64,000 nt of DNA, taken from the NCBI GenBank assembly GCA_013201395.1, contig JABMJD010000003.1, positions 1-64,000 of the forward strand, read 5' to 3'. Under the pieces are notes generated by a model that was given only the letters and a program-made list of their open reading frames with translations, did not search any database and had not been told where the DNA came from. Positions 1 through 54,165 of the stretch are shown one piece after another (position 1 is the first letter of the stretch; the number at the start of each line of letters is the position of its first letter). This DNA comes from Candidatus Syntrophopropionicum ammoniitolerans. GTDB lineage: Bacteria > Bacillota > Desulfotomaculia > Desulfotomaculales > Pelotomaculaceae. A program made the translations under genes and the position numbers.

Positions 1-90
1 ATGGTCAGGTAGTAGAGGTTGAAGTTGATATTTCTAACGGCCTGCCTTGTTTTGAAATAGTCGGACCTTATTCCAGATGATAAAAACAAG

Positions 91-224: not shown

Positions 225-1679
225 GTGTCCACAGAAACAAATCTTTTGCCGTTCATCTGTGAGGCATTTGGCCACAACAAAAAAATCCGCCGGGATATAG
301 ACAGGCTGTATAAAATCAAAAAGTATGAATTCTATCGCCTGGCTAGGGAGTCCGAAATCTACAACCATATAATCATTCGGGAGGGTGATATCCACAGAGA
401 GGAGTATGCAAAAAAAGCACTGGGGATATTGCTTTATCTCCATGAAAATCCGCAAGATACTGAGATCATGAAAAAGCTAACTACTTTAATCCGTAAAGGT
501 TGGACTAGAGTCTATATGTGGGTACAGAATCACGAAATGATATCAGTAGGAAAATATTTGTATAGCGGGACGAAGTCCGGCAACTATAAAACAGATGATG
601 ATTTTAACACTGATATGCTGATGCTGATTTGGTTTGCCTTGTTAAAAGAAAGAGAGCTAAAGCAAGATGAAATATTCGCTCGGATAAGGCAAGTTTTACA
701 TCAACGACTAGAACACTCTAGCGAAAACAGCAAAACAAGGTACTCACGCAAAACAATGGAAGAGGATTTATTACAGGATACCCATAAGTTGAAACAAAGA
801 ATTTACGATACCTATGGGCCAGTTAATTCATATGATACTATTTTTCATGGCCACGATGATGTGTTTGCTATATCCGAGCCCATTTCACTAATAGCAGACA
901 CTGAAAGCATAAGTATTCCCAGCGTTTTCAACGATGTAAAATTCAGCAATGATGATGTAGATGAAACGCTCGGTATTTATTACATGTACAACAAGAACAA
1001 AAATACCGGAGAAGCTGTCAAGCATTTGGTGCACGGTTTAATTTTGAAAGGTATGTGCAAAGCATATAAGCAGGTTAAGCAACACTATTTTGAAAACAAC
1101 AAGGAAACTGTTTTTATAGACCTGGAAAACCAGGAAAAAGAGCTTCAAAGGCTAACTGAAGATAACAATATTCTTAACAAAAAATTATCCAATGCGGAAA
1201 AAAGGATCCAGGAAATCAAAAGTGAAACAGAGGAAAGATACAAAAAAAAGATATGGGAATTGAGCAACAGGGTCAGATGTCTGGAAGAGGAATTGGAAAA
1301 GGAAAAGGAAAGCAATCAAGAATTGACTGCACTGAGAGAGTTCTTGTTTTCGCTTGACAGGGGGCTGGTGCCGAAAAAAATAGAGGATGTACCGGATTTA
1401 AGCACAACAGCCGGGGTTGTTATCGGTGGCCACCAACGATGGCAGCAAAAAATGAAAGAATTATTACCAAAGTGGATTTTTATATCATCCGAAAACTTTG
1501 ACACACGCGTTCTGGACGGTGCTGATATAGTGTGTTTTTTCACACAGCATCTAAGCCACGCATTGTACTATAAAGCAATCGAGGAAATACGAAAAAGGAA
1601 TATAAGCAAAATAGGCTATATAAATAGCGTAAATGAAGAATTGGCATCCTACGAGATAGCAAAAATATTGAAAAATTAG
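225..1679 (+). CDS. DUF2325 domain protein with central coiled coil
   Basis: A 484-residue protein of unknown function. Residues about 295-370 are a charged coiled coil. The C-terminal 90 residues carry VVIGGHQRW, then a GADIVCFFTQHLSH stretch and a Rossmann-like beta-alpha pattern, which is the DUF2325 signature. Translation most likely starts at a GTG preceded by AAAAAGGAG. The gene lies between two terminators, is AT-rich compared with the phage genes and is on the opposite strand, so it may be host flank or an end-of-prophage cargo gene. Its position beside the CRISPR array may or may not be functional. The domain call is fairly firm; the role is unknown. Confidence 0.7.
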   Translation: MSTETNLLPFICEAFGHNKKIRRDIDRLYKIKKYEFYRLARESEIYNHIIIREGDIHREEYAKKALGILLYLHENPQDTEIMKKLTTLIRKGWTRVYMWVQNHEMISVGKYLYSGTKSGNYKTDDDFNTDMLMLIWFALLKERELKQDEIFARIRQVLHQRLEHSSENSKTRYSRKTMEEDLLQDTHKLKQRIYDTYGPVNSYDTIFHGHDDVFAISEPISLIADTESISIPSVFNDVKFSNDDVDETLGIYYMYNKNKNTGEAVKHLVHGLILKGMCKAYKQVKQHYFENNKETVFIDLENQEKELQRLTEDNNILNKKLSNAEKRIQEIKSETEERYKKKIWELSNRVRCLEEELEKEKESNQELTALREFLFSLDRGLVPKKIEDVPDLSTTAGVVIGGHQRWQQKMKELLPKWIFISSENFDTRVLDGADIVCFFTQHLSHALYYKAIEEIRKRNISKIGYINSVNEELASYEIAKILKN

Positions 1680-1767: not shown

Positions 1768-2267
1768 TTCCAACCCTACAGATTTTGGCTTGATGTTCCA
1801 ACTCAACATAGCTACCTTGGGAACGAGGGTTTTCCGAAGATATTGTGATAGGCATCAGTTCCAACCCTACATAGCTACCCTGGTAACGGGGCCGTTTTTC
1901 TCGTCTGGTGTTTTGGTTCCAACCTTACATAGCTACCCCGCCAGCAGAGAAGACTGGCTATTGGCTCGACGCTCCAACCCTACATAGTTAGGTCAGGAAC
2001 CCATTTCTCCAATGTCCCGATTGTAGGTTTTTTCGGTCCCAACCCTGCATAGTTAGGTCGGAAACATTAGTTTTTGTCTATCTGTGTTCATGTTGTTTTT
2101 CCGCTAGTCCCAGCCCTACATAGTTAGGTCGGAAACTTAATCACCCTAACTCCCTGTTTTAGATGTTCAATGCTCCAACCCTACATAGTTAGGTCGGAAA
2201 CCTGGGGCCAGCCTGCTGGCAAGTGTCATTTCAATAAGCTCCAACCCTACATAGTTAGGTCGGAAAC
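1768..2267 (-). CRISPR. CRISPR array, eight full repeats plus one fragment
   Basis: Repeats of 29 nt start at 1796, 1859, 1917, 1972, 2037, 2108, 2173 and 2239, with a 13-nt fragment at 1768. Read on the minus strand the repeat begins GTTTCCGACCTAA and ends TAGGGTTGGAG; CCTA pairs with TAGG, flanked by a second CC/GG pairing, giving a small hairpin. The four repeats nearest 2267 are almost identical and decay steadily towards 1768, so the leader is on the right and transcription is leftward, in line with the Cas12f-like gene. Spacers are 34, 29, 26, 36, 42, 36 and 37 nt, more variable than in a typical array. No cas1 or cas2 is present in the window. Confidence 0.85.
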
Positions 2268-2520
2268 CCGTTCTAACTACTGGTCATTATGCGGTTCTCA
2301 AGGACCCTAGCTATGTTTTTGTCGTTGACCACCAATAGCGCACAACCCCCGGCACATCGACGACATTATGTTTTGGTTGTCTAGCCCCGCCGTGCATACG
2401 CAGTTCAGGCTAGAGGTTTCCGGCTTTCGTCGCGGCTTAGTGAGCGTTCCCTCCGTTGCCGAAGTCTTGGAGGGCTTCTCACCCCAGGCTGCCGAATCAG
2501 CCCTAATTTTTTATCACCGC
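2268..2520 (-). ncRNA. Leader and candidate tracrRNA region
   Basis: About 250 bases lie between the effector gene and the first repeat, with no convincing ORF. On the minus strand bases 2316-2303 read ACATAGCTAGGGTC. This can pair with the repeat segment GACCTAACTATGT over 12 base pairs with one mismatch and one bulge, which is what an anti-repeat of a tracrRNA looks like. Cas12f systems use a tracrRNA encoded between effector and array, so the position fits. A second, weaker match (GGAAAC near 2420) could pair with the repeat start. No promoter was identified with confidence. Confidence 0.45.
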
Positions 2521-3780
2521 CTAGCTTTTTGCGATCCGCTTGGCGGTATTGTAGTCTTTATCTATTTTAGCACCGCAACTCGGACAAGTCAAAGGGCTTT
2601 CGTTATCACTATCAATTTCAATTTCCGCATCGCATTTGTGGCATCTAGTGCCATCTAGCGATACCACTTTAACAGCAATGCCCTTTTCCTCGGCTTTATA
2701 CTTAATTTTTTCTACCACTCCTGCCCAGGGGTAGTTAACCAGTTCCGAGACGCTGGCACCGGGGGTAACCAGCTTGTCCAGTATTTTTATTGTCCCGCAC
2801 CGGTTAGCCATTGCCACATCTACAACCCGGCGGCTGTATTTATGGTTCAGGGTGTCCCGGATAGCGCTAGCCTGTCCAGCAAGCACTTCTGTGCCCTGTA
2901 GTTTTCTTTTTATGCCATGACCACGGTATCCTGCATGTCGTTGTATTTCCTTCCGGCGTTCGGCAATAGCATGGATTTTCTTTTCTGTCGCTATCACCTC
3001 ACCCGCCGGCAGGGTATATCTTTTTTGTCCAACGCTGTACGCGGCAAAGACCGTATAATTGCCAGTTCCAAACATCAGCCCCATTGCCCGGTCCGGATCC
3101 AGTTCCCGGTTTTGTTTTTCCGGGATAAAGCTGAAAGACACAATGCAAAACCACTTTTTCTTACGCTTGTTGTAAGTGATCTGCATTGCACCCTGCTTAT
3201 ACTCGCCTTCCATGATTCGGCGGAATATAGCTTTCTTGGATCGGTCACCGCCGTCAAGCAGTATGCTATACCGCGTCTGTTTGCCGGCGGCTAGAGATAG
3301 TAGGGTTATGGTAGCAATGAAACTAGACCTGCCGTTGTCTTGCTCCTCCACAGACAGGGTGTAGTTTGCATTTGCTACCTGCGCCGGAGTACCCAGTCTG
3401 AACGAAGGAATGGACTTCTGCAGCCGCATGATTTCTCGGACATCGTTCTGCCAGCGAGACATCGCAAACTGATTGGTCTGTGATGTGTTGCTGGAGGCCA
3501 TATCTGGATACATTTCCCTCATTTTCCGGTAGACATGGTTGCGAAAACTGCATCCATATCGCTCCTTGTCCTCGGCTGCTGCTGGATACTTCCCGGTTTC
3601 CTCTTTGTGCGCCAGGCGGTAGTTGTGGTGTTGCCAATACAACTGCACCGCCATATTGCACAGTTTTGTTGTGTGATAGGACAGGTCCCGGAGAACCTGC
3701 CCCAACTCGTCCCACCCGGTATCCAGTGGCTTGATAATCTGAAACCGGGTAGCTTTGGTGATCATCTTTGTTTTTGTCAT
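2521..3780 (-). CDS. Cas12f-like CRISPR effector with degenerate RuvC site (predicted nuclease-dead)
   Basis: A 419-residue protein matching the Cas12f1 (type V-F) layout: N-terminal RFQIIKPLDTGWDELGQVLR and SIPSF segments typical of this family, then a split RuvC domain and a C-terminal zinc ribbon (C380, C383, C399, C402). The RuvC-I motif that should read GIDLG reads GLMFG, so the catalytic Asp is Met236. RuvC-II reads GTIKILDKL where a Glu is expected, giving Leu334 or, with a shifted alignment, Asp335. Only the RuvC-III Asp409 (DKDYN) is intact. It should bind guide RNA and DNA but not cut. The start was chosen for the AAGGGGA ribosome site; an ATG 20 codons upstream lacks one and lies inside the preceding gene. 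It follows the EXLDI gene by 10 bp and precedes the array. A TnpB is less likely given the array and Cas12f-type N-terminus. Confidence 0.85.
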   Translation of the reverse strand: MTKTKMITKATRFQIIKPLDTGWDELGQVLRDLSYHTTKLCNMAVQLYWQHHNYRLAHKEETGKYPAAAEDKERYGCSFRNHVYRKMREMYPDMASSNTSQTNQFAMSRWQNDVREIMRLQKSIPSFRLGTPAQVANANYTLSVEEQDNGRSSFIATITLLSLAAGKQTRYSILLDGGDRSKKAIFRRIMEGEYKQGAMQITYNKRKKKWFCIVSFSFIPEKQNRELDPDRAMGLMFGTGNYTVFAAYSVGQKRYTLPAGEVIATEKKIHAIAERRKEIQRHAGYRGHGIKRKLQGTEVLAGQASAIRDTLNHKYSRRVVDVAMANRCGTIKILDKLVTPGASVSELVNYPWAGVVEKIKYKAEEKGIAVKVVSLDGTRCHKCDAEIEIDSDNESPLTCPSCGAKIDKDYNTAKRIAKS

Positions 3781-3790
3781 GGCTGTCCCC

Positions 3791-4282
3791 TTATAGGTCA
3801 AGATACTCGGCAGTATCCAGACCCAATGTCTCCCCTGCACCTTTTAACAGACTACCGGGGATTTCTTTCGTTGCCTGCAGCTCTTCCAGGGTATCAAACA
3901 CCCGGTACTCTGCATAGCAATTTTCATTTTCCCACCTGGTCCACTGATAGATATGGACCAGGTATTTTTCTTTCTTGGTGAGATACAAGGTGTAATCTAT
4001 ACCCTGATCATCCCGGGATTTGGTTTGACCAGAATAAATTCGGGCATCGGCAATCTGTTTGCCGATGAATTTGTATAGCTTAACATCATCATCCCCACGG
4101 GGATAATAAACCCCGCTTCCGATGACTTGTTCTTCCATACCGGTCTCCTTGCTTTCTTTCTGATCCACAAGCCGGCGTACGGCTTCGGCAATCATAGCGC
4201 TAAAGCTGTCGCCAAATAGCTCCTCAGCACGCTCAAACATGCCGACATCTTCATCTTTTATATAAACCTGTTTCCGTGGCAT
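3791..4282 (-). CDS. EXLDI-family protein with ribbon-helix-helix-like N-terminus
   Basis: A 163-residue protein. The N-terminus (PRKQVYIKDEDVGMFERAEE and on through SFSAMIAEAVRRLV) has the beta-helix-helix pattern of CopG/Arc-type DNA-binding proteins, and the last residues, EYLDL, match the E-X-L-D-I/L ending that names the EXLDI family found on plasmids and phages. It has a good AGGAGG site and is directly upstream of the Cas12f-like gene, probably in the same transcript. It could autoregulate the effector unit. The family call is moderately sure; the regulatory role is inference. Confidence 0.6.
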   Translation of the reverse strand: MPRKQVYIKDEDVGMFERAEELFGDSFSAMIAEAVRRLVDQKESKETGMEEQVIGSGVYYPRGDDDVKLYKFIGKQIADARIYSGQTKSRDDQGIDYTLYLTKKEKYLVHIYQWTRWENENCYAEYRVFDTLEELQATKEIPGSLLKGAGETLGLDTAEYLDL

Positions 4283-8161: not shown

Positions 8162-8499
8162 TTTTATCCTCCCTTTTTGCTCCCGGGCTTGTGACCGGGG
8201 CCAGCTTTTCGCTAGCGCGCATTACTGGCCCATTTGGGCCATCACTCTGCATGTCCGTTTTTGTTGCCGGTGTTCGGACTAACACCGCCCTAGCCTCCCC
8301 TTTCGGCTCTCGATGGGGAAGGGTGCCACCGCACGCTCTTTTTTTACATGCCCGATTGCGTGATTCGGGCTGGTTGCCTATCCCCCGGGCAGCTTTTCGG
8401 GCTCCCGGAGAAACCTCCGGCAGTGCCGTACCCCAGTGACTGCACCGGCTACCGGGACAGTTTAGAGCAGTCGGCGGGGAATAGGGTGTATGTAGCTAC
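8162..8499 (-). ncRNA. Hairpin-rich non-coding stretch, candidate structured RNA or long leader
   Basis: No convincing ORF is present over about 335 bases. On the minus strand at least five hairpins follow one another: GCCGGAGG/CTCCGG, CCCGA/TCGGG, CCTTCCCC/GGGGAGG, GGTGTT/AACACC and TGGCCCA/TGGGCCA. GC content is higher than in the neighbouring genes. This could be a stand-alone structured RNA, or the 5' leader of the gene that starts at 8161. It does not match a known phage RNA family that I can name. Confidence 0.4.
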
Positions 8500-9536: not shown

Positions 9537-9772
9537 TTCCTGTCCCCTCCTTATTTTTGGTACCTGCCGCCTCCGGCAACGCTCCGGGCTTAAACCCTGT
9601 TTATCCTGGCCCGGTCCAGTGGTCTTGCTTCTCCCGCTTTCCGCAGCTCTGGTGGCTCTCCCCTCGGCTCCGGTGTTCGCTTCCCTTGGCCGGCTTCATG
9701 CCTGGCTTCCCTGGTCCGCGCTTGCGGGTCTTCTCTGTGTTTTGTTGTCGCTGTGTTTTTCTCTCTATATAT
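9537..9772 (-). other. Long GC-rich 5' leader of the cargo operon
   Basis: About 230 bases separate the predicted transcription start from the first gene. One frame is open for 63 codons but has no ribosome site and a skewed Arg/Glu/Pro composition, so I regard it as non-coding. Short self-complementary segments (GCCGGAGGCGGC) are present near the 3' end. No riboswitch family is recognised. Confidence 0.35.
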
Positions 9773-9843: not shown

Positions 9844-9872
9844 CAAAAAAAATACCCCCTTTTTTTTAAAGG
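9844..9872 (-). terminator. Terminator of the type IV-B operon
   Basis: On the minus strand ACCCCC and GGGGGT form a stem around an A/T loop and are followed by TATTTTTTTT. The stop codon of the last gene of the operon lies within this hairpin. The terminator separates the CRISPR operon from the promoter of the cargo operon. Confidence 0.85.
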
Positions 9873-10186
9873 GGGTCAATGCGCTTAAACAATGCCTTGT
9901 TCAGCAACCAGTGTTCTTTTGTTCTGTAAGCATCTGGCACCATATCCCTGGTAACCTGTTGAGGTATAGGGCCAAATATTAATCTATACAAAAAAAGCCC
10001 TCTAGAGCTTTCATGGGCACAATTGCGTAACGCCATAAACGCCAGGCCAGGGCTGGGTGCAACACAAATTCTTTTTGTAATGCCATCTTCATTATCCATG
10101 CGCGTGACCGGTATCCAGGGATTCAGGATTAACAATGCACCTTTGTCTACCCACTCCCATCTGTACCACTCTATCATCCTAGACAT
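9866..10186 (-). CDS. Hypothetical last gene of the type IV-B operon
   Basis: A 106-residue Trp/Pro-rich protein whose start overlaps the end of the CysH-like gene by eight bases, so it belongs to the same transcript. No domain is recognised. Co-occurrence with CysH suggests a joint role, but nothing in the sequence shows which. Confidence 0.55.
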   Translation of the reverse strand: MSRMIEWYRWEWVDKGALLILNPWIPVTRMDNEDGITKRICVAPSPGLAFMALRNCAHESSRGLFLYRLIFGPIPQQVTRDMVPDAYRTKEHWLLNKALFKRIDPL

Positions 10187-10970
10187 ACTGCCGCACCTCT
10201 GGAAATTCCTTAGTAAACATTTGATAATATTCGGGATAATATTTTTTCAGCCAGACAATGCGGCCGTATTGGGCTGCACTCGTTCCCCAGATACTTCCTA
10301 ACCGCCGCCGGTTCCTGTCTCTACCATCATCAAGATCATACAACTGGCAGTAAGGCAACCCATACCTGGCAACATAAGACCAGACATCTTCTGCGGTCCA
10401 ATCTAAAATGGGGTCAAGCACCCAAATACCGTTTTGTTTCCGTAGCCATTTGCCATACTGTCGCAGGTTTTTCCTTTCCCGACTCTCCTCTGCTCTTATT
10501 CCACGAAGTGCACCATCAATGCCTTGTTCTTTTTCGTATTTTTCCACTTGCCGCTTGTATTCCCGGTCAATGGCAGGGGCTTCAAGCCCATGTTTTTTAT
10601 ACATCTCAAAAAGGCTGCCGAAAATAAAATTATTTATATTTACGCCTTTGTTTTGCCAGTAGGCCATCATTTGCCTAACATCCGGCAAGTGTGGCTCTGC
10701 AGACGAGTGGCGTATCACTAAAATGCCTGGTTTCAATGACAAGGCAAGGTGCAGAATTATTATGCTATCCTTGCCGCAACTAAAACTCACAGAAGGTTTT
10801 TCGCACAATTCTAGCCATTCTGTTATTTTTTCTTTGGCGCGTTCTGCCAGCACAGGAATGCGGCGATTGATAACTATGGGAGACTGAATTGTTCGTAAAT
10901 GAGTATAACCGGGAACCGGTATAGAAGTGCCACACCAGGTTGCACCATTTACTTGATATGTCTTAGTCAT
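10179..10970 (-). CDS. cysH: CysH-like PAPS-reductase-family protein of the type IV-B system
   Basis: A 263-residue member of the adenine-nucleotide alpha-hydrolase/PAPS reductase superfamily. It has the PP-loop SFSCGKDS at residues 62-69, an RGIRAEESRERK segment and a WTAEDVWSYV motif as in the CysH/DndC group. A cysH-like gene is a recognised companion of type IV-B CRISPR loci, where its role is unsolved. The ATG overlaps the csf3 stop by four bases and has a GAGGTGAGGGA site; the longer upstream frame is a shadow of csf3. It lacks a visible C-terminal catalytic ECG(I/L)H motif of true sulfate-assimilation reductases, so a nucleotide- or RNA-modifying role is possible. Confidence 0.85.
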   Translation of the reverse strand: MTKTYQVNGATWCGTSIPVPGYTHLRTIQSPIVINRRIPVLAERAKEKITEWLELCEKPSVSFSCGKDSIIILHLALSLKPGILVIRHSSAEPHLPDVRQMMAYWQNKGVNINNFIFGSLFEMYKKHGLEAPAIDREYKRQVEKYEKEQGIDGALRGIRAEESRERKNLRQYGKWLRKQNGIWVLDPILDWTAEDVWSYVARYGLPYCQLYDLDDGRDRNRRRLGSIWGTSAAQYGRIVWLKKYYPEYYQMFTKEFPEVRQYV

Positions 10971-11653
10971 TCCCTCACCTCCGGCATGAATACAATTGCC
11001 TGGCTCTCCCGCCGCCAGTACGGTGGCCGGATACCATACTGTCGCATGTTGGCAACTTTCACACCGGGTGGCAATCCCTGCTCGGCCGGCAATGCACGGG
11101 TAATTCTCCCGTTCCACGATTCGGACCAATCTTCCGGCCAGGGCACAACTTCCCAGCAGTCTACAAAACCATACCCCTGCGCTGATTTTTTCCCAACCGA
11201 TACAATTCCCCGACACAATTCCTGCACTTCTCCCAGATTCCCCACCGCATACCACTCTAGCGCCCCCGCAAACAGCAAAATATTCAGTGGCATCCGGTAG
11301 GCTTTGAGCCGGCCGCTGCTTTCGTCTACCTTCCCCCGCCGGCTTTTGAAGTCAATATACCGCTCCATGTGGTCGTCAAACCGCCGGTGCCAATACGTAA
11401 CATATTCCGTCACCGGTGGTGTCATGTTGAAACTGCAAGCCCAATACCACTTATCCCCCCTGCCCCGCCGCTCCAACGGCAGCGGGACCTCAATCCAGCC
11501 TTCTTTTGTTCCTGGTGGTGGTGGCTCGTAGTAGTTTTCCGGGTGATTCCGCCGAATCCACTCGGCTGCTAGAATACTATCTAGTGGGAAAAATGGCTCG
11601 GTACCGGCAATACGGCCGTCCAGCAGGTATGCTCGAATCCGCAATGGCTGCAT
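10967..11653 (-). CDS. csf3: Type IV CRISPR protein Csf3 (Cas5-like)
   Basis: A 228-residue protein following csf2. Its SVGKKSAQGYGFVDCWEVV segment has the glycine-rich loop seen near the C-terminal half of RAMP proteins (Cas5/Cas6/Cas7 families), and MPLNILLFAGALEWYAVGN matches an N-terminal RAMP fold helix-strand region. In type IV complexes Csf3 caps the guide-RNA 5' handle. The start at 11653 was chosen because GGAGGG lies six bases upstream, using the end of csf2; an upstream ATG at 11668 is possible. Position and operon order make the call firm although the sequence is divergent. Confidence 0.8.
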   Translation of the reverse strand: MQPLRIRAYLLDGRIAGTEPFFPLDSILAAEWIRRNHPENYYEPPPPGTKEGWIEVPLPLERRGRGDKWYWACSFNMTPPVTEYVTYWHRRFDDHMERYIDFKSRRGKVDESSGRLKAYRMPLNILLFAGALEWYAVGNLGEVQELCRGIVSVGKKSAQGYGFVDCWEVVPWPEDWSESWNGRITRALPAEQGLPPGVKVANMRQYGIRPPYWRRESQAIVFMPEVRE

Positions 11654-11654
11654 A

Positions 11655-12677
11655 CTATTTCCCTCCATCCAGCAGCTGCTTCAATTCTGGCGTTTTTTCT
11701 TCCAAATAACCATCATATAGCTTTTGCAAGAAGTCATCGTATCCCTGTTTTGCTTCCTCTGCTGGGCGCGACAGCCACAAGGTATTTTCAGCCACACGCA
11801 AAAACACCCCCCGCGGTTCCGTGTCACCAGGATAACTCCATTCGTATTCTATTTCACATAGTCCATGGCCGGTGCCGGACTTGCCGCCGATATGTGGGCT
11901 TTTCTGGAATTCGTGCAATGCTGATACAAATGCACCCAGTTCAAGCTCGGTCATGTCCTGCAAGCCTATCCGCTGGTATAGAATACTGCCGGCCGCTAAC
12001 AGCTCCACAGTGTAACGCATCTGTGTGGCCGGGCCGTCTTTTTCCTTCTTCTTTTCCTGTTTCTGTTTGCCATCATCCAATAGTGCCTGCTGTTTTGGTG
12101 CCAACAGTAAAGTATCTGCTTCCTGGGCCTCCGCGATATATTTGCGCATGTTTTCCTGCTTTGAGTCATCCCGCCGGGTATAGCTTTTCTCATATGTCCA
12201 CTTCTTCCAAGATGGGGCATTCTTGTCCCGGTATTTTTCGGGAATCACCCGCTGACATTCTTTTACCAGTGGGTACATACTGCCTATTTTTAGCTTTCCT
12301 TCCATGATTTGATTCCCTACACCACCACCAAAAATGGAAAATGCCGGCAGCAGCTTCCGATAAAGCCGGGCCTGGTCAATGTCCAGGGATTGCTTGCCGC
12401 CGATACTGCCACCGGAAAATAGCAGGTGAAACGTTTCCAATGGAATTATAACCCCCAGTTTATCCAGCAAATACTTGGCCGCCATGTCCCGCAGAATACC
12501 CCTAAAACTGTTGCCACTATAAAGGAAGCATTCCACCGGCTGCCCATCGGGGCCAATAATGATATCCTCCGACAAATAACTGTCAATACCCAGCGACTCA
12601 CCAATATGGCTTAACGCCGACAGTAACATTATCTTTCCGTCCAACTTGATTGTCTGCAATTCGTCAGTCTTTTTCAT
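11655..12677 (-). CDS. csf2: Type IV CRISPR backbone protein Csf2 (Cas7-like)
   Basis: A 340-residue RAMP protein. Residues about 54-68 (YSGNSFRGILRDMAAKYLL) are the typical Cas7 glycine-rich segment, and HIGGKSGTGHGLCEIEYEW is the second conserved loop. A charged, lysine-rich insertion at about 195-215 may be the flexible thumb. Csf2 polymerises along the guide RNA. It has a TTAGGAGGAAT site and is spaced 14 bases from the Cas11-like gene. Confidence is high from motifs and context. Confidence 0.88.
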   Translation of the reverse strand: MKKTDELQTIKLDGKIMLLSALSHIGESLGIDSYLSEDIIIGPDGQPVECFLYSGNSFRGILRDMAAKYLLDKLGVIIPLETFHLLFSGGSIGGKQSLDIDQARLYRKLLPAFSIFGGGVGNQIMEGKLKIGSMYPLVKECQRVIPEKYRDKNAPSWKKWTYEKSYTRRDDSKQENMRKYIAEAQEADTLLLAPKQQALLDDGKQKQEKKKEKDGPATQMRYTVELLAAGSILYQRIGLQDMTELELGAFVSALHEFQKSPHIGGKSGTGHGLCEIEYEWSYPGDTEPRGVFLRVAENTLWLSRPAEEAKQGYDDFLQKLYDGYLEEKTPELKQLLDGGK

Positions 12678-12690
12678 TTTTCTATTCCTC

Positions 12691-13146
12691 CTAATCTTTA
12701 ACTTCGAATCTTACTTCATAGGGTCTTTCGCGTTCTAACCTTTCGCGAACAAGTAGAATCACATAGGCGGTTTTGTTGTATAAAACGTCCAGCACGTCCC
12801 TATTGTTGGCCCTCCTTAATACACCGGTCAGGAATTGCCTCCGGTCGTCATTGGCCAGTTCAATCAGTCCCCCCATTCCATCGCTCATCATATCTGGCAT
12901 GCCGTCCGGTACAGTCTTGGCCCATTTCGGTTTGATGCTGGAACAGGCCAACTTGGGCTTTAGTTTTTCGATAAATTCCGGCAAATCTTCTGCTCGCTTG
13001 GCAACGCTTTTAACGGCTCGTTCAATTTGGTCCCATAGTCCAGGAGTAATTTTGAATCTTTTGTGGTCCCTGGAACGATAAACCACGTAAACCAAAAAAG
13101 CCGCTGTAGCGGCATTTTCTTCGCTGGTATCAAAATTGTGAATCAC
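12691..13146 (-). CDS. Cas11-like small subunit of the type IV-B complex
   Basis: A 151-residue, almost wholly helical protein with many Arg and Lys residues, located between csf1 and csf2. Type IV-B complexes include a Cas11 small subunit of similar size and composition. The GTG start overlaps the upstream TGA (GTGA), with AAGGTGATATTC as site. The identity rests on size, helicity and position; no diagnostic motif exists for Cas11. Confidence 0.6.
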   Translation of the reverse strand: MIHNFDTSEENAATAAFLVYVVYRSRDHKRFKITPGLWDQIERAVKSVAKRAEDLPEFIEKLKPKLACSSIKPKWAKTVPDGMPDMMSDGMGGLIELANDDRRQFLTGVLRRANNRDVLDVLYNKTAYVILLVRERLERERPYEVRFEVKD

Positions 13147-13574
13147 TGAATATCACCTTCCTTTTTCATTTTTGCAAATGCGTCACATGTCCGGATCCGT
13201 TGTATTGCCCGGCCCGGAGACAGCCCGGCGGCAAAGGCTGTTTCCAGCAAAAAAGCAGCCCTCTTTATATCGGAGCTGCCTTTTATCCTTTTCCGGTGTC
13301 GGCACATCTTTGTTTTTACCGCCCTGGGGCTGCGCCGCTTCAGCTTCTGTGCTATCTTCCCCGGGGATTTACCGCGCAAATAGCTGTCCGTGAGGATGCT
13401 TTCTTCTTTGCTAGTCCAGCGTGGCATTTTCTTCCCGCCATGCAGGTACTTATACACCACACTTTTGCTCCTGCCGATAACCCCAGCTATCTCATAACCC
13501 GTTAAGTGTGAGTTGCTCCGCAGGTGCTTTATCCTCTCCTTTTCCGCAGCAGTCAACGGTGGGTAGCGGCTCAA
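13143..13574 (-). CDS. HTH/SANT-like DNA-binding protein embedded in the type IV-B operon
   Basis: A 143-residue basic protein with two probable helix-turn-helix units: LTGYEIAGVIGRSKSVVYKYL (about 24-44) and a Myb/SANT-like WTSKEESILTDSYLRGKSPGKIAQKL (about 52-78). The start is a TTG with a near-perfect GGAGGTG site seven bases upstream, so the gene overlaps csf1 by 83 bases. A shorter ATG start at 13427 would remove the first unit. A DNA-binding subunit in this place is not a standard type IV-B component that I know of. It may regulate the operon or assist targeting. Confidence 0.6.
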   Translation of the reverse strand: MSRYPPLTAAEKERIKHLRSNSHLTGYEIAGVIGRSKSVVYKYLHGGKKMPRWTSKEESILTDSYLRGKSPGKIAQKLKRRSPRAVKTKMCRHRKRIKGSSDIKRAAFLLETAFAAGLSPGRAIQRIRTCDAFAKMKKEGDIQ

Positions 13575-14277
13575 CAGGCTTCACCTCCGGCTTTTCCTTC
13601 TTCTGCGCCACAAACAGAGCCAGCTCAAACAGTGGCCGGCCCCGCCAAAACTCCAACATTCCTTCTAGTTCCCCCCATTGGCGGATACCACATTCTTTAA
13701 TTCTGTGCTGGCTATAATTGCCTGTGATGATCTCGTTTTTAGTGAAATAGACATAAAGCTCTTCAACCATGTCCAGCAGGTGCTCTAGCTTTTTTGGTGA
13801 TACATGGATTGGCTGCTCCTCCAGCATCACGGTAAATCTTTGTCTGTCCACATTCACCGGGGCTTTGAACGTGAGGTGTTTCTGCCCCGACACCGCCAGG
13901 CAACATACGAACGGCGGGTTGGGTGGGTCAAGCAATATCTCCCGCCATTCTGCCCGGGAAGGGTGCTGTAACTCGGCTGGGGAAGCCAGGATGGAGTAGT
14001 TCCGCATCTCCCGCCGGGATAAGCAAAATGCACAACCGGTGCAAATGGACTGGCTGCCCTGCCCCCGGGCGTATGGATGATCGGTAAATGTTGGCTTGAT
14101 TGCTTTTTTTGTTGGCACCCCTTGGCCATTGGTATCACCACCACACAGCCAACAATAGCTATCGGCCACATCCACTGTTTCTATTTGCGTGTAGGCAATA
14201 TTTTTGCGTGGGGTAGCTACCGTCCCCGTAGCCATAGCAGCTTCATATATCAGACCTGTTGCTGTCGGGATTTGCAT
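13492..14277 (-). CDS. csf1: Type IV CRISPR protein Csf1 (zinc-finger large subunit)
   Basis: A 261-residue protein with a treble-clef-like zinc finger: C42 and C45 (YCWLCGG), then C79, C82 and C85 (ICTGCAFC). This arrangement near the N-terminus, followed by a helical C-terminal half, is the signature of Csf1, the Cas8-like subunit of type IV systems. The ATG has an AAAGGGTGAG site and overlaps the upstream gene by 28 bases. The identification is strong given Csf2, Csf3 and CysH in the same operon. Confidence 0.85.
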   Translation of the reverse strand: MQIPTATGLIYEAAMATGTVATPRKNIAYTQIETVDVADSYCWLCGGDTNGQGVPTKKAIKPTFTDHPYARGQGSQSICTGCAFCLSRREMRNYSILASPAELQHPSRAEWREILLDPPNPPFVCCLAVSGQKHLTFKAPVNVDRQRFTVMLEEQPIHVSPKKLEHLLDMVEELYVYFTKNEIITGNYSQHRIKECGIRQWGELEGMLEFWRGRPLFELALFVAQKKEKPEVKPVEPLPTVDCCGKGEDKAPAEQLTLNGL

Positions 14278-14579
14278 TTTCTCACCCTTTCTGTGTAAAT
14301 TCTCATGTCCGGCTTTAGAATCGTTGGCACCACCGGCCAGGCGTTTGCCTTTTTCCTTTCCGCTATCACGGGTATCAGATATTCTTTGTCCCGATACTGA
14401 GCCTTATAGACGGGGCATTTCCGCCGGTTATAAACTTGATAACCAACTAACTGCTTGCCACTATGTTGCAGTGCAATTTGGATGATTACCCGAATTACCC
14501 GGGTGGGTAGATTGGCGACACGTTTTTTAAACCGTTGTACTGCATGAGTGCTGACATAGTATGGCTGCTCAAATCTCAT
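14250..14579 (-). CDS. Hypothetical basic protein, second gene of the type IV-B operon
   Basis: A 109-residue basic protein. The N-terminal VSTHAVQRFKKRV and later CPVYKAQYRDKEYLIPVIAE recall the HA-x-x-R helix and beta strands of BrnT/DUF4258-type RNase folds, but the match is weak. Together with the ribbon-helix-helix gene just upstream it could be a toxin-antitoxin-like pair or an RNA-processing accessory. The ATG overlaps the preceding stop. Confidence 0.5.
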   Translation of the reverse strand: MRFEQPYYVSTHAVQRFKKRVANLPTRVIRVIIQIALQHSGKQLVGYQVYNRRKCPVYKAQYRDKEYLIPVIAERKKANAWPVVPTILKPDMRIYTERVRKCKSRQQQV

Positions 14580-14713
14580 GATTTCTTCCCCATCGCTTTG
14601 TCCACTAACCCCCTGATGATTTCCCCGATAGACTTATCTCGCGTCTTGCTTTCTGCTTGGAGCCAGGGGTATTGATCTTTTTTACGAATTAATAATTGTA
14701 ACCTATGCCACAC
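14576..14713 (-). CDS. 45-residue ribbon-helix-helix protein leading the type IV-B operon
   Basis: A GTG start follows AAAGGAGGTTATATTC and the TGA overlaps the next ATG (ATGA). The sequence (RLQLLIRKKDQYPWLQAES, then SIGEIIRGLVDKAM) has the short strand plus two helices of CopG/Arc regulators. As first gene after a terminator it is well placed to repress its own operon. Confidence 0.5.
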   Translation of the reverse strand: MWHRLQLLIRKKDQYPWLQAESKTRDKSIGEIIRGLVDKAMGKKS

Positions 14714-14757: not shown

Positions 14758-14784
14758 AAAAATACCGCCCTTTATTCGGGCGGC
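14758..14784 (-). terminator. Terminator between lysis cassette and type IV-B operon
   Basis: On the minus strand CCGCCC and GGGCGG pair around GAATAAA and are followed by TATTTTTTT. The late transcript should end here, leaving the CRISPR operon as a separate unit whose promoter must lie in 14715-14757 (no clear boxes seen). Confidence 0.85.
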
Positions 14785-15107
14785 TTGTTATTCGGTATTT
14801 CTTTTTCGGCTAGTGGGTCATTCAGGAATTCATAACCACCCATTGCCGCCAATGTCACCACAATAGCATTGATGATTGTTAGTAGCACGGCTATGGCCAA
14901 ATCACTTTCGGCGACATTGAATAATCCTTGACACCAATAAACCAAGGACACAATGATTAGGGCCCACACAAAAGCATAAAGCCTGACAAGCACATCATCA
15001 AAAGCTTTCTTGACGACACTTTTTGTAAACTGGACAATAAGCCCCAGGACTACAACCATTCCTGCAAATGTGCTCAGATATTCGATAGTAATAAATTCGT
15101 TCGGTAT
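14772..15107 (-). CDS. Phage holin, probably translated from a non-standard ATA codon
   Basis: A holin of about 111 residues with two hydrophobic helices (VRLYAFVWALIIVSLVYW and IAVLLTIINAIVVTLAAMGG). The first ATG is at 15059, but the reading frame stays open upstream as PNEFITIEYLSTFAG before MVVV, which looks like a normal holin N-terminus. AGGAGG sits seven bases before an ATA codon at 15107. Either ATA is the start or a mutation has removed the original ATG. It permeabilises the inner membrane at lysis. Confidence 0.65.
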   Translation of the reverse strand: MPNEFITIEYLSTFAGMVVVLGLIVQFTKSVVKKAFDDVLVRLYAFVWALIIVSLVYWCQGLFNVAESDLAIAVLLTIINAIVVTLAAMGGYEFLNDPLAEKEIPNNKPPE

Positions 15108-15120
15108 TTTGCTCCCTCCT

Positions 15121-15801
15121 TTAAATGTTGTTTAGTAATATTTTTACCTCTTTGATTAGTTGCTTGGTTCGCATGTTTTCATCGTGCAACTTGGTGTTTT
15201 CGATTATCAAATCGCTTATTCTTTGGCAGTTTGCGCATGGGTCCGGTTTGGGGTCATCGACAGACACCTTTTGCAACCCCAATGCTTGCACCACTCCATA
15301 GGCAACCTCATTAGCCAGGCCATCCAGAAACACAGGAGACTTTAGCAGCTTTGCGTCCTCCTGGCGGTCAATAAATAGGCATTCCAACAGCACGGCAGGC
15401 ATGGCAGTTTCGCGCAAAACCTGAAAATTGGTTGCTTTTTGCCCGCGGTCCGGCATGTTGAATTTCTGCATGTAGCCCATTACCGCATTGTGGATAACTG
15501 TTTGTGTTTCCTTTGTCTCCACCCCGGTCGTCAGATAGGTATAACTTTCAAAACCTGTCCCGCCACCAGCATTGACATGAATGGACAGAAATAAGTTCGC
15601 CCTGTGGCTGTTTGCATATGCTGCCCGCTCTGCTAGGTCCTCTGTCCGGGGAACCATATGCACTTCACAGGCATAGGCCTCTAGCCTCTGTGCTACCCCT
15701 TGGGCAATGCAGCTAGTTAAATCTGCTTCCTTTAGTCCATTTCCGACAGCCCCGGGGTCCCGGCCGCCGTGTCCCGCATCTATACAAATTATCTTGCTCA
15801 T
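15121..15801 (-). CDS. N-acetylmuramoyl-L-alanine amidase (Amidase_3) endolysin
   Basis: A 226-residue zinc amidase that cuts the peptide from muramic acid in peptidoglycan. The zinc ligands are in IDAGHGG (near the N-terminus), the SIHVNAG motif, and VLLECLFID, which holds the catalytic Glu. After about residue 185 the protein ends in a short C..C segment and a coiled coil rather than a large wall-binding domain. The start was chosen as the ATG overlapping the protease stop (ATGA). Confidence 0.88.
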   Translation of the reverse strand: MSKIICIDAGHGGRDPGAVGNGLKEADLTSCIAQGVAQRLEAYACEVHMVPRTEDLAERAAYANSHRANLFLSIHVNAGGGTGFESYTYLTTGVETKETQTVIHNAVMGYMQKFNMPDRGQKATNFQVLRETAMPAVLLECLFIDRQEDAKLLKSPVFLDGLANEVAYGVVQALGLQKVSVDDPKPDPCANCQRISDLIIENTKLHDENMRTKQLIKEVKILLNNI

Positions 15802-16535
15802 ACCTCTACCCCGTTCTGTCTGCAAAAAACCCTAATTTGATCATACCGGACACAAAAGCCCATGTTGTCCACTCCGGTAAACTTCCAAACGGCAATCCCC
15901 ACAACATGGCCATTGCCATCAATTGCTGGCCCGCCACTGTTTCCGGGATTGATAGCTGCATCTGTTTGGAAAGCGCCAAGGGTACCAGCCCCTGGGAAGG
16001 ACTCCCGCCTCGGTGCAGAAATAACCCCCTGTGTCACACTGTCGTCATATCCGTGTGGGCTACCAATGATTGCGATATGTTTGCCACGATATAACGTTTC
16101 ATCAATATCCCCCTGGCAAATAGTGAAGTGGTTTGGCACAGTCCTATCAACTTTCAGCAGCGCTATGTCTTCCGTGGGGGAAGTGGCAACCAGGTGGCAT
16201 TTGTAATTGGTATCCTCAATCGCGGTGAAATATTTTTCATTTTCCACCACATGTTTTGCTGTGATTAAATAACCTGTCTCAGTGATGAAAAACCCTGTCC
16301 CAATGCCCCCATCACCCCTATACAGGGTAAACACTGCCGGCAGCAATGGTTGTAGAATCCCATCAAGCAGGCACATTTTAAATGTTAACCTGGACACCAC
16401 AGATGCCAATTCTTCCCGGCTAATGTTTTGTTCCGGCTTAAATGTTCCATCTGGATAACCACTCATCAACCCCGCATTGGCCAATCTCTCAATGTCCTTG
16501 TAGCTCCATCTATCTTTTGAAACATCAGTAAACAT
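15798..16535 (-). CDS. SLH-domain trypsin-like serine protease
   Basis: A 245-residue fusion. Residues 1-50 form one S-layer homology motif (FTDVSKDRWSYKDIERLA ... GYPDGTFKPEQNISREELA). Residues 70-240 form a DegP/trypsin-type protease with His95 (AKHVV), Asp123 (EDIALLKV) and Ser200 (NPGNSGGP). All three catalytic residues are present. There is no signal peptide, so release through the holin or placement on the virion is needed. It sits inside the lysis cassette, overlapping the amidase, which suggests degradation of the S-layer or other cell-wall proteins during exit or entry. Confidence 0.82.
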   Translation of the reverse strand: MFTDVSKDRWSYKDIERLANAGLMSGYPDGTFKPEQNISREELASVVSRLTFKMCLLDGILQPLLPAVFTLYRGDGGIGTGFFITETGYLITAKHVVENEKYFTAIEDTNYKCHLVATSPTEDIALLKVDRTVPNHFTICQGDIDETLYRGKHIAIIGSPHGYDDSVTQGVISAPRRESFPGAGTLGAFQTDAAINPGNSGGPAIDGNGHVVGIAVWKFTGVDNMGFCVRYDQIRVFCRQNGVEV

Positions 16536-16898: not shown

Positions 16899-17072
16899 TC
16901 AAGCACCAGCACCTACATGCTTGGTAACGGAGCCTTTCAGCCGCCGAATTTCGCGGAGCTCCTCTTTGGTGATTGCTTCATGTTGCAAACAAGCCGAAGC
17001 AATTCGGTTTATAATGTCATTTTGCCTTCGTATGATTTCTGTTTGTGTATCAATAATCTGCATAGCATCCAT
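16899..17072 (-). CDS. 57-residue protein downstream of the reverse transcriptase
   Basis: The ATG has a GGAGGAGGGG site and overlaps the end of the reverse transcriptase gene by 23 bases. The product (starting MDAMQIIDTQTEIIRRQND) is a short helix-rich protein that resembles small phage structural or lysis-linked proteins. Its role is unknown. Confidence 0.5.
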   Translation of the reverse strand: MDAMQIIDTQTEIIRRQNDIINRIASACLQHEAITKEELREIRRLKGSVTKHVGAGA

Positions 17073-18177
17073 TTTGCCCCTCCTCCCCTGCAGGCCCCTT
17101 GGGGTTACGTGTCAATACAAAGTCATTAAACAGCTTTTCCTCGAACTTTTGACAGTCTACCCGGTCAAGTATTGCTTTATAGGACTGCACTGTTGCGTTT
17201 GCCTCTTCCAACGTGATTTTGCCTTGCCGGTATTCTTCCGCTCTATTGCGCAGGTGCCTTTTCATTCGGAGCGAGGTGGTCTTCCTTAATATTGCATGGT
17301 CGTCATAAATCAATATCCCAACAAATTCACAGCCGCGCCTCACTGGCCGCAGAGCTGTCTTGCTGTTAAATTCCAGGCGCAGACGCTCCTCCAGGAATGC
17401 GGTCATTTCCTTCCCGTGTTCTTGCAGGCGCTCCCTGTCATTGTCCACGATAATTATGTCGTCCATATACCTGATGTAGCGCTTTATACCCAGTTCCCGT
17501 TTTGCGTATTGGTCGAGGGGGTCCAGATACATATTGCCCAGCATGTGACTGAGCCCACCGCCGATCGGGATCCCTGAATCCCACAGCATCTCTGCCTCTG
17601 TGATTGTCAGGTGGTCTGCATCTATCGGCAGGCCAAACGGTTTTGACGTGCTGCAAACATAATACTTGATTAAATCTACGGTCCTGGGATCGTCTATTTT
17701 CTTCCTACAAATCTCCAGAAGTATTTCATGGTCTATGCGATAGAAAAATTTCGCTACATCAAACTTGTAATAAAACCATTCGCCCTCAGATGCCCTTGTC
17801 GCCCGAAGCCAGCCATATAAAGTATCAAACGCGGCCAATTGGCCACGCCCTTTAATGCATGCATACGTGTCAGTTATAAATGTTTTTGTAACCCTTGGGT
17901 TTATTGCGTCATAAATTGCTCGCTGTATGATTTTGCTCTGGAAATCGATGTAGATGACTTTCCGGACCTTCGGCACATAAACAAAAAAGCTCTTGTAATA
18001 TACCTTGGGCACCTTGCCTGAACGTAGCAGGCGGCTAATCCCATGCAGCCTGTCCTCCAGGTTTTCCTCAAATGCAAGGGTTTCCCGGTTTTCCCGTTTC
18101 CCTTTCGCTATCTCCTTTTCTGCAACCAGCAGGCTGTGAAAAGAAGATATCTCCATAAACACTCTTCTAATTGCCAT
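17050..18177 (-). CDS. Diversity-generating retroelement reverse transcriptase
   Basis: A 375-residue stand-alone reverse transcriptase. Polymerase motif A is KFDVAKFF (Asp140), motif C is YMDD (237-240), and motif B/4 is GIPIGGGLSH (202-211). Most DGR enzymes have S-Q at the end of motif 4; here it is S-H, which is unusual. It copies the template-repeat RNA with adenine-specific errors and, with Avd, replaces the variable repeat in the tail gene upstream. Order on the strand is target, avd, template repeat, RT, as in classic DGRs. Confidence 0.9.
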   Translation of the reverse strand: MAIRRVFMEISSFHSLLVAEKEIAKGKRENRETLAFEENLEDRLHGISRLLRSGKVPKVYYKSFFVYVPKVRKVIYIDFQSKIIQRAIYDAINPRVTKTFITDTYACIKGRGQLAAFDTLYGWLRATRASEGEWFYYKFDVAKFFYRIDHEILLEICRKKIDDPRTVDLIKYYVCSTSKPFGLPIDADHLTITEAEMLWDSGIPIGGGLSHMLGNMYLDPLDQYAKRELGIKRYIRYMDDIIIVDNDRERLQEHGKEMTAFLEERLRLEFNSKTALRPVRRGCEFVGILIYDDHAILRKTTSLRMKRHLRNRAEEYRQGKITLEEANATVQSYKAILDRVDCQKFEEKLFNDFVLTRNPKGPAGEEGQNGCYADY

Positions 18178-18390
18178 AATAAAAAAAGTTTCGTGGCAAT
18201 GCGGGCCTCGGATGCCCTACCGCCGGACCAGGCGGGCTTCACCCCGCCCGTATAGCCTACGGGAACCGCAGGCTATCATCGCCACTGTTTTACTTTTTAA
18301 CTTCCGGCTTGGAAGTAAGGGAAGCAGATCCTTAATCCCTGTACCATCCGGTATCCCTTAGGCGTACCGGCCTTTGACGAATTGGGATTG
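18178..18390 (-). other. Structured spacer between template repeat and RT gene
   Basis: About 210 bases without an ORF. It holds two clear hairpins: ATAGCCT/AGGCTAT around an 11-base loop near 18250-18277, and GCGGG/CCCGC near 18229-18245. In known DGRs the RNA downstream of the template repeat is required for cDNA priming and Avd-RT binding, and this stretch is the corresponding region. Confidence 0.6.
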
Positions 18391-18509
18391 AGCGGAGCGG
18401 AAGCCGATGTTCGTGTTGGCGTTCGTGCGGGAGTTGTTGTTGCCGTTGGCGTAGAAGACGCCCGCGTTCGTGGTGTTCGTATAGTTGCCACCGGAGTTGA
18501 ACAAGCGCT
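18391..18509 (-). repeat. DGR template repeat (TR)
   Basis: 119 bp matching the variable repeat at 19010-19128. All 15 differences fall on T of the plus strand, i.e. on A of the template as read on the coding (minus) strand, out of 31 such positions; no G, C or T of the coding strand differs. The template reads as a run of AAC codons, the codon best suited to adenine mutagenesis. It lies in the gap between avd and RT and is not itself in a gene. Confidence 0.95.
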
Positions 18510-18531
18510 GTATCCGCATTCCCTAAACTGC

Positions 18532-18918
18532 TTACCTCCTTGTGCTTTTTATCCATCCACCCAACATGCGACCGATCTCTTTGGTCTTTTCCGTCCATAT
18601 CCTATATTTCTTGAACGGCAGAAATTTCAGCCTGTATGTTAACCGGATGTATTTTTTGAGCTTTGCAAGCTCCACGTCCATTTCCTGCAAGGTGTTCTTT
18701 TTATAGTATTTCTTGTTAGCCTCTATGGCCCGCTCAAGCAGGCGATCCATGCAGCGCTTTACATCTGCAACAATGGCCTGTTTTTCGGAGCGGGGGAATT
18801 GTGCCAATGCCAGATATGCATACTCCATCATGTCAAATATTTTCTTGACAATCAGGAGCTCTTCTTCATCGTCTGGGTCCTCCGGTAACCCATAGCCTTC
18901 CACTTCTTCCATAGCCAA
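18532..18918 (-). CDS. avd: DGR accessory variability protein Avd
   Basis: A 128-residue four-helix protein. The ALAQFPRSEKQAIVADVKR segment and the ending KTKEIGRMLGGWIKS are hallmarks of Avd proteins. Avd forms a basic pentameric barrel that binds the template RNA and the reverse transcriptase. It lies between target gene and template repeat as expected. Confidence 0.9.
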   Translation of the reverse strand: MAMEEVEGYGLPEDPDDEEELLIVKKIFDMMEYAYLALAQFPRSEKQAIVADVKRCMDRLLERAIEANKKYYKKNTLQEMDVELAKLKKYIRLTYRLKFLPFKKYRIWTEKTKEIGRMLGGWIKSTRR

Positions 18919-18955
18919 TTTCCCCCTTCCTCTAAAAGCCCAGGATTTGCGGATC

Positions 18956-18971
18956 GCCCGCTATCGCGGGC
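18956..18971 (-). promoter_or_regulatory. DGR target-site hairpin downstream of the variable repeat
   Basis: On the coding strand GCCCGC and GCGGGC form a perfect six-base-pair stem with a GATA loop, 38 bases after the end of the variable repeat. A hairpin or cruciform with a four-base GRNA loop at this place is required for efficient retrohoming in the Bordetella phage system. GATA fits GRNA. Confidence 0.7.
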
Positions 18972-18994
18972 TAAACAGATTACAAGAACCAGAT

Positions 18995-20059
18995 TTACAA
19001 GGCGACATAAGCGGAGCGGAAGCCGATGTTCGTGTCGGCGTTCGTGCGGGAGTAGTGGGTGCCGGTGGCGTAGAAGACGCCCGCGCGCGTGGCGACCGTA
19101 CAGCCGCCACCGGAGACGAACAAGCGCTCTGCTGCTACGTTGTTGAAATAGAGCACATCACCCTCATAGTTAAAACCGCTATCGTCAGCCAACAGCCCAT
19201 AAGCAATAAGCACTGCCTTGGCCGCATCCCCTATAGTTGCGTCGCATGTCACATCGCTGATTGCAGAGTTGAAGCTGTCGCTCTGTGTTTCTACAACTGT
19301 TCTGTATTGAGGTTTGTTGTTTACTTTGTCTACCTTTACAGTTCCGGTTCCATTCGGGTCTACAAAATCACCGGTAGCGGCATCGATTGCCTTCCATGTC
19401 GCAGCGTCTGTGCTTTGTGGGTTGTTGCTATCAGCCGCATTGTTATTAGCCAGTAGCTGCAGTTCCCCGTATACCGTCCTGATACCGCCGGTCCATTCGG
19501 ATACGTTGCCGTTTATATCCCAGATACCATCCACGGCCTTGTTATGGCTCCAGGTTACCGGTCCGGTGCCTGTCAGCACTCTGGTAACTTTGGGCGGCGT
19601 ATCGGTGCTGAAAGCTGCCGGTATAGCTACTGCTAATGTTTCACGGCTGTCTTTGCCGTAGTCATTGTTGCCGTATGGTAAATACCCGTTTTTCTTACAC
19701 CAGAGGGCAATTGCCGCATACTCCGCCTTGGTCATCATGTGCCAGCCGCGTCCCTTTGCCTCACATGCCTGGCGTGCTGTATCCCATGTCAAGTGATTGG
19801 CCGGATCTTCTCCAGGCAAACTGTAGGCCCTGCCGTTGTGGATTACGTTCTGATATTTTGATAGATAAAGTCCCGGCACTTCCTGTCCATTAATAATAAA
19901 CATCGGAGCCGTACTGTCGCTCCCTCCGGTTATCACGTCCGACATTTTAAATTTAGGGACATATACCATCACGCTGGGCAGCCCCTTGTCGTCCAACAGA
20001 ATGTCATTACCTGGGCACGTTGCTTTGAGCGCCAGTTTTACTAAATCAAAATTTGCCAT
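18995..20059 (-). CDS. DGR target: C-type-lectin/formylglycine-enzyme-like tail protein
   Basis: A 354-residue protein. The middle (NHLTWDTARQACEAKGRGWH, then a NGNVSEWTGG segment) belongs to the sulfatase-modifying-factor/C-type-lectin fold used by DGR variable proteins. The C-terminal 40 residues hold the variable repeat and end GFRSAYVAL. Eleven residues differ from what the template would encode (mostly Asn to Val, Gly, Arg, Thr, His, Tyr, Asp). As it is next to the tail fibre genes it is probably the receptor-binding tip. Confidence 0.88.
   Translation of the reverse strand: MANFDLVKLALKATCPGNDILLDDKGLPSVMVYVPKFKMSDVITGGSDSTAPMFIINGQEVPGLYLSKYQNVIHNGRAYSLPGEDPANHLTWDTARQACEAKGRGWHMMTKAEYAAIALWCKKNGYLPYGNNDYGKDSRETLAVAIPAAFSTDTPPKVTRVLTGTGPVTWSHNKAVDGIWDINGNVSEWTGGIRTVYGELQLLANNNAADSNNPQSTDAATWKAIDAATGDFVDPNGTGTVKVDKVNNKPQYRTVVETQSDSFNSAISDVTCDATIGDAAKAVLIAYGLLADDSGFNYEGDVLYFNNVAAERLFVSGGGCTVATRAGVFYATGTHYSRTNADTNIGFRSAYVAL
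19010..19128 (-). repeat. DGR variable repeat (VR)
   Basis: The C-terminal coding part of the target gene. It aligns without gaps to the template repeat at offset 619. The substitutions are clustered in 19036-19117, while the coding-strand 3' end (19010-19035) is identical to the template, as expected for the initiation-of-mutagenic-homing end. Confidence 0.95.
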
Positions 20060-54121: not shown

Positions 54122-54165
54122 AGTTTATCGCCTCGCTTTTATAGGTATTTTCCAAGGTTGGTATA

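Follow-up and report, generated by a model that had tools for sequence, protein, structure and literature searches.

The first 64,000 positions of the 147.5-kb contig JABMJD010000003.1 of Candidatus Syntrophopropionicum ammoniitolerans (hereafter the window; the draft genome comprises 2.36 Mb) hold an operon at positions 9866-14579 that is, judging by its sequence, almost certainly a type IV-B CRISPR-Cas system and a divergent member of that family. The operon is a separate transcription unit and moron-like cargo of a temperate myovirus, placed directly after the lysis genes. Every gene is encoded on the minus strand, and neighbouring genes overlap or almost touch. From first to last, with the flanking terminators, the features are as follows.

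14784-14764, minus strand: terminator between the operon and the lysis genes (7-bp G+C-rich stem plus T7)
14250..14579, minus strand: p109, first operon gene, 109 amino acids (aa), motif HAVxRF...RVAxLP
13492..14277, minus strand: csf1, type IV Cas8-like large subunit (PADLOC typeIV_Cas8 1.7e-46; TIGR03114 4e-21)
13143..13574, minus strand: helix-turn-helix (HTH) protein, D5-like regulator in PHROG (Pfam HTH_38 1.3e-5; phrog_323 1.8e-11)
12691..13146, minus strand: cas11, type IV small subunit (PADLOC 7.9e-41)
11655..12677, minus strand: csf2, type IV Cas7 (PADLOC 1.7e-66; TIGR03115 2e-18; phrog_22746 4.5e-56)
10967..11668, minus strand: csf3, type IV Cas5 (PADLOC 3.4e-42; TIGR03116 3e-14)
10179..10970, minus strand: cysH-like gene, ATP pyrophosphatase domain with the motif SCGKDS (Pfam PAPS_reduct 9.5e-17)
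9866..10186, minus strand: p106, last operon gene, matching an uncharacterised PHROG (phrog_25542 8e-9)
9876-9854, minus strand: terminator at the operon end (9-bp stem plus T8)

The operon proteins were compared with four profile libraries (Pfam, NCBIfam, PADLOC and PHROG). A complete set of Csf1, Cas11, Csf2, Csf3 and a CysH-like protein in one operon, as the original prediction had it, was recovered by the PADLOC, NCBIfam and Pfam profiles: all four core genes are recognised by PADLOC, those for Csf1-3 also by NCBIfam, and the PADLOC matches are to type IV models. The scores of Csf1, Csf2 and Csf3 fall under the NCBIfam cut-offs (75.7 vs 140, 66.8 vs 130 and 53.2 vs 140, respectively), which marks them as divergent family members, and the PADLOC matches put the type IV assignment beyond doubt. 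As for the subtype, the cysH-like gene lacks the catalytic cysteine (Pfam and alignment), and neither a CRISPR array nor Cas6 lies within 9866-14579. Profile searches of the operon found none of the type IV-A markers (DinG helicase, own array with Cas6/Csf5), and it holds Csf1 in place of the type IV-C marker, a Cas10-like large subunit with an HD domain. The IV-A Csf2 models of PADLOC score far lower than the best one (33-62 bits vs 223).

The five genes named in the original prediction stand, but that list missed the HTH gene, p109 and p106. The HTH gene overlaps csf1 by 83 nt, and its product probably regulates the operon. The long CysH open reading frame (start 11255) is a mechanical call; the likely start is an ATG at about 10970, giving a 4-nt overlap with csf3. 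No family match was obtained for p109 in the profile libraries. Its AlphaFold2 model, of low confidence (predicted local distance difference test score 67), is weakly RelE/HigB-like (best Foldseek E 0.05), so that a RelE-like fold is no more than tentative. p106 was not found among the other IV-B phage operons. Hairpins with T tracts flank the operon on both sides, as had been predicted, which makes it a transcription unit of its own.

The element that carries the operon is a myovirus-type prophage with a tail sheath (8e-95), portal (7e-53), terminase, tape measure, baseplate, endolysin and recombination genes. Head, contractile tail, lysis genes, integrase and attachment site, as expected of a temperate myovirus prophage, are all present. 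Its left end and the lysis genes are found at these positions.

1..65, plus strand: N-terminal piece of comM at the left prophage end (attL), translating as GQVVEVEVDISNGLPCFEIVG
14772..15825, minus strand: lysis genes just upstream of the operon, holin-like (two predicted transmembrane segments) and endolysin (phrog_435 2.9e-55; hydropathy)

The C-terminal piece of comM resumes at contig position 67,037, past a serine integrase/recombinase (L008:1464-3023), so that the prophage, inserted in comM, extends from about 62 to about 67,050. The predicted setting, a myovirus prophage with lysis genes on one side of the operon and cargo genes on the other, is supported. A mis-join of plasmid and phage contigs, which had been named as a possible artefact, is excluded by the complementary comM halves and by the recurrence of such an operon in eight further phage contigs.

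These relatives came from an alignment search with Cas11, which returned ten IMG/VR loci; Csf2 queries returned a subset of those ten. After near-duplicates were merged (L031/L032, L033/L034 and L022/L037), eight phage operons remained, nine distinct ones with that of the window. The nine group together, and the phages that carry them are largely unrelated. Identity of csf1 to the eight others is 44-64%; that of Csf2 is 45-78% inside the phage group and 28-37% against the plasmid forms and phage SPI1. Eight of the nine operons are preceded, on their own strand and at a distance of at most about 3.5 kb, by lysis genes, part of which BLAST comparison of the loci identified, while those in L001, L021 and L022 were assigned by eye; the exception is L035, whose operon is near the terminase. 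The remaining phage genes are mostly not common to these relatives and the phage of the window, which implies that the operon is passed from phage to phage and repeatedly ends up in a similar location. Among 50,697 annotated phage records, Csf2 had a single match, in Skermania phage SPI1, and a Csf2 search of genome contigs gave none.

The accessory genes vary. The HTH gene is present in seven of the nine distinct operons and p109 in four, with its homologues in L001, L030 and L036 at varying positions within the operon. Cas6 is encoded in three (L021, L031/32 and L033/34; Pfam 6.9e-14, PADLOC 8e-13 to 2e-13). In these small numbers, p109 and Cas6 are mutually exclusive. Arrays of at least three repeats were absent from the other IV-B phage records examined, including the whole 67-kb G028; these records are fragments, and two-repeat arrays could escape detection. 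Beside cysH, three loci (L032:13704-14642, L033:13506-14435 and L035:12108-13010) encode a membrane protein, some 300 aa long, for which seven transmembrane segments are predicted and which has no family match. The locus L021:7468-11976 has two csf1-csf3 pairs plus Cas6, with a single csf2 and cas11.

Between L032 and L033, dN/dS is 0.03-0.06 for csf1, cas11, csf2 and cysH (about 0.06 for cysH), whereas Cas6 and the membrane protein diverge faster than the core genes. Such strong purifying selection indicates that the complex does something. Wherever the sequence covers the 3' side of an operon (the window, L001 and L031-L035), a CysH-like gene is present. In the Csf2 tree, whose rows are only IV-B-like plasmid and phage sequences, the window and L001 are sisters (77% identity, 97/97 support), yet their CysH proteins are only 28% identical, and the CysH of L001 groups with that of a Rhodovastum plasmid (41% identity, 100/99 support). 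Therefore, CysH has been exchanged between operons. Across nine aligned IV-B CysH proteins, the PP-loop SxGKDS and the motif GxRxxES are kept and the C-terminal catalytic cysteine motif is absent. That CysH is swapped and its ATP-binding motif is always kept suggests that enzymatic activity matters, and CasCysH has been proposed to carry out ATP alpha-hydrolysis (PMC8175902).

A second CRISPR-related module lies near the left end of the prophage.

1795..2267, minus strand: CRISPR array, 8 repeats of 30 nt (0-8 mismatches), spacers of 25-41 nt, left end degenerate
2268..2520, minus strand: possible trans-activating CRISPR RNA (tracrRNA) region, weak anti-repeat near 2306 (7 of 200 shuffles reach the score; fold z -0.75)
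2521..3780, minus strand: cas12f, apparently nuclease-dead (PADLOC Cas12f 7.6e-84; PDB Cas12f family 1.8e-55 over 410 aa)

A first reading of 2521-3840 as TnpB/TldR was superseded by the Cas12f match. Compared with PDB chains and the Cas12f of the L028 phage, in which all three RuvC residues are intact, the prophage protein has Met for the RuvC-I Asp and Leu for the RuvC-II Glu and keeps the RuvC-III Asp. Type V-F is thus represented by an effector and an array, with the RuvC catalytic triad not intact. The anti-repeat between cas12f and the array is suggestive of a tracrRNA, although the fold is not unusual. The array is 7.6 kb from the IV-B operon, so that the predicted lack of arrays is true of the operon but not of the prophage. 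Its repeat is absent from the rest of the host draft genome (a metagenome-assembled genome, MAG), and an exact search of viral contigs returned no match. The spacers had no target in the 50,697 phage records and none in the prophage beyond chance; weak matches in related genomes coincide with a palindrome within one spacer. What the old repeats have kept is the spacer-adjoining end (minus strand), as type V CRISPR RNAs (crRNAs) retain, and not the class 1 5' handle. The array therefore most likely serves the neighbouring inactive Cas12f rather than IV-B.

Pairing with type V effectors is seen elsewhere. Phage G029 (L032:17609-19644) carries a Cas12m gene (PDB 3e-164; PADLOC 5.5e-141) and three degenerate repeats, plus a IV-B operon with Cas6. 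A 484-aa protein (phrog_11092) flanks the array both in the window (225-1679) and in the Cas12m phage (L041:1-1113; 48% identity). An Actinomyces plasmid carries IV-B, an inactive Cas12b3 and a mini-array (PMC12669027). A link of IV-B and Cas12m as a general rule for plasmids was dropped, as no plasmid record had both among the matches listed. The association of IV-B with type V effectors in three elements is suggestive of a pattern, not a rule.

Self-cleaving ribozymes were identified with Rfam downstream of the operon.

9558..9620, minus strand: Pistol ribozyme, some 250 nt past the operon end (RF02679, 57.5 bits vs gathering 34.5)
8183..8251, minus strand: Twister-P5 ribozyme, downstream of the operon (RF02684, 53 bits vs 37.6)

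Rfam also gave an HDV-F-prausnitzii ribozyme in L032 (16133-16203) and a twister-sister in L033 (15158-15228). These four classes in three phages are all on the operon strand and within about 2.5 kb of the operon end (in L032, of cysH), against a background of two hammerhead ribozymes in roughly 280 kb of DNA from elsewhere (the remainder of these phages, other phages and plasmids); the grouping was noticed after the fact.

On the other side of the operon, next to the endolysin, a phage gene at window positions 15798-16535 joins an S-layer-homology domain to a trypsin-like protease. A diversity-generating retroelement occupies 17050-20059 (reverse transcriptase, bAvd and an FGE-fold target gene), with its template repeat at 18391-18509 and its variable repeat at 19010-19128, at the end of the FGE-fold gene; 15 of 15 mismatches between the repeats are at template adenines.

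In the host genome itself, one locus is of type III and comprises Cas10, cas1 and 46 repeats; there is also a set of type I-B genes that includes cas1 (gene names were read by eye, Cas1 excepted). An array for I-B was not found in the stretch that was read, and the host repeats, as far as seen, differ from that of the prophage array.

Taken together, we tentatively favor, as the leading but by no means assured reading, a nuclease-free ribonucleoprotein that loads host small RNAs or guides and acts with CysH in conflict with the host or rival elements. Csf2 and Cas11 would form a filament on a small RNA, capped by Csf3 and Csf1; a solved precedent is the IV-B complex from a Mycobacterium, a Csf2/Cas11 filament whose small RNA has a regular length (PMC7937560). 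The loaded RNA would come from outside the operon and be largely host RNA, including host crRNAs, since no array belongs to the operon, Cas6 occurs in relatives that likewise show no array, and type I-B and III systems are present in the host; the array-less Cas6 of these relatives supports guides from outside. By occupying or re-using host RNAs, the complex could protect the prophage or aid it against rival elements, and CysH might supply an ATP-dependent nucleotidyl-transfer step. Silencing without cleavage is known for IV-A (PMC12669027). Several points weigh against this proposal. The IV-B complex of Mycobacterium JS623 showed no enrichment of co-expressed crRNAs (PMC7937560), a result that argues against any crRNA preference; CysH has no specific role in the proposed scheme; and the operon of the window itself lacks Cas6. 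Moreover, the sole host spacer resembling the prophage (type III, L052:16381-16418) shares 24 identical bases with a tRNA T-arm-like stretch at about 54155-54185 of the window, where ARAGORN finds no tRNA, and with this one tRNA-like match there is no direct sign of this host attacking this phage.

A larger part for CysH is possible but doubtful: the ribonucleoprotein would recognise the nucleic acid of a rival, and CysH would adenylylate or modify it or make a signal, giving the lysogen superinfection immunity. The constant presence of the gene, its conserved PP motif, the strong selection on it, the polytopic membrane protein adjoining it in L032, L033 and L035, and the proposed ATP alpha-hydrolysis would all fit, but specific recognition would have to occur without a known guide source, the window has no effector membrane protein, and the activity is putative. 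It is unlikely that the guides come instead from the prophage's own array and serve IV-B, by itself or jointly with the inactive Cas12f, in cleavage-free silencing. Such an origin would agree with an array in the same prophage whose repeat occurs nowhere else in the MAG, with the Cas12m and degenerate array paired with IV-B in G029, and with the mini-arrays of the Actinomyces plasmid (PMC12669027) and of the Fuxivirus IV-B (PMC10848311). The array as IV-B's own is nevertheless disfavored by its adjacency to cas12f, by the type V-like part of the repeat that is kept and by the missing Cas6; pairing is seen in only two of nine phages (partial records), and the plasmid matches listed hold no record with both Cas12m and IV-B. 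Also unlikely, and somewhat speculative, is that IV-B forms half of a nuclease-free silencing outfit together with inactive type V effectors and their arrays, or with guides cut by ribozymes from phage transcripts; if so, the type V partnership or the ribozyme-cut guides would explain where type IV-B obtains its RNA and how it addresses its targets.

The near-fixed place of the operon, on the same strand and within about 3.5 kb of the lysis genes in eight of nine phages that otherwise share few genes, would be expected if the complex bound late phage or host transcripts and modulated lysis or takeover. We regard such timing control as improbable: in the window a terminator parts the lysis genes from the operon, in L035 the operon is near the terminase instead, and cargo genes commonly settle just behind lysis genes. 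That the operon is passive or decaying cargo without function is very improbable; no IV-B system has a known phenotype, but all frames are open, the relatives are under purifying selection, and gene order and composition are kept across divergent phages.

Prophages and several lytic phages are reported to carry type IV systems, and an archaeal virus to carry IV-B (PMC10848311), so that a phage-borne IV-B is in itself already known. The statement in the original prediction that IV-B is mainly a plasmid matter is accordingly not supported in that form, as Skermania phage SPI1 also has one. To our knowledge, the literature searched does not describe the present combination, namely, a group placed at lysis genes with HTH, p109 or Cas6, the exchange of CysH, and an inactive Cas12f with an array. 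The near-fixed place of the phage group, the CysH exchange, Cas6 without arrays and the repeated pairing with non-cutting type V effectors narrow the hypotheses on the function and RNA source of IV-B. In addition, a single lysogen unites a compact IV-B operon with its likely partners in conflict (host I-B and III, inactive Cas12f), which eases testing what IV-B is for. If IV-B takes host guides, it would represent a class of phage counter-defence; if its guides are also used by inactive Cas12, the two would make up a bipartite silencing system.

Among known systems, the Cas12f family (AsCas12f1-like, PDB 7wju/8dzj) matches 2521-3780 over its full length, and the prophage protein differs in having lost two of the three RuvC catalytic residues. 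Like the prophage, the Actinomyces plasmid brings IV-B together with a small array and an inactive type V effector on a single mobile element (PMC12669027, Ext. Data Fig. 7); compared by description only, it is a plasmid without phage genes and has Cas12b3, not Cas12f. Fuxivirus, also compared by description only, has IV-B and CysH in a virus genome, for which counter-defence or inter-element conflict was hypothesised, but it is an archaeal virus with a viral Cas4, and its operon adjoins a mini-array of two repeats (PMC10848311). The Skermania phage SPI1 (KR011061) resembles the window in having a complete csf1-cas11-csf2-csf3 set in a phage, and genes for lysin and holin follow a few kb further downstream; however, its Csf2 is 33% identical, the tree places it with the Rhodococcus plasmid form (long branches), and it has no HTH or p109 match. 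Finally, the plasmid IV-B systems (Mycobacterium sp. JS623; Rhodococcus, Mycobacterium and Gordonia) share with the window csf1, cas11, csf2, csf3 and a cysH-like gene in a nuclease-free operon without an array, whereas the operon described here is phage-borne, has the additional HTH and p109 genes, a neighbourhood of lysis genes and relatives with Cas6, and encodes a Csf2 that is 27-37% identical to theirs.

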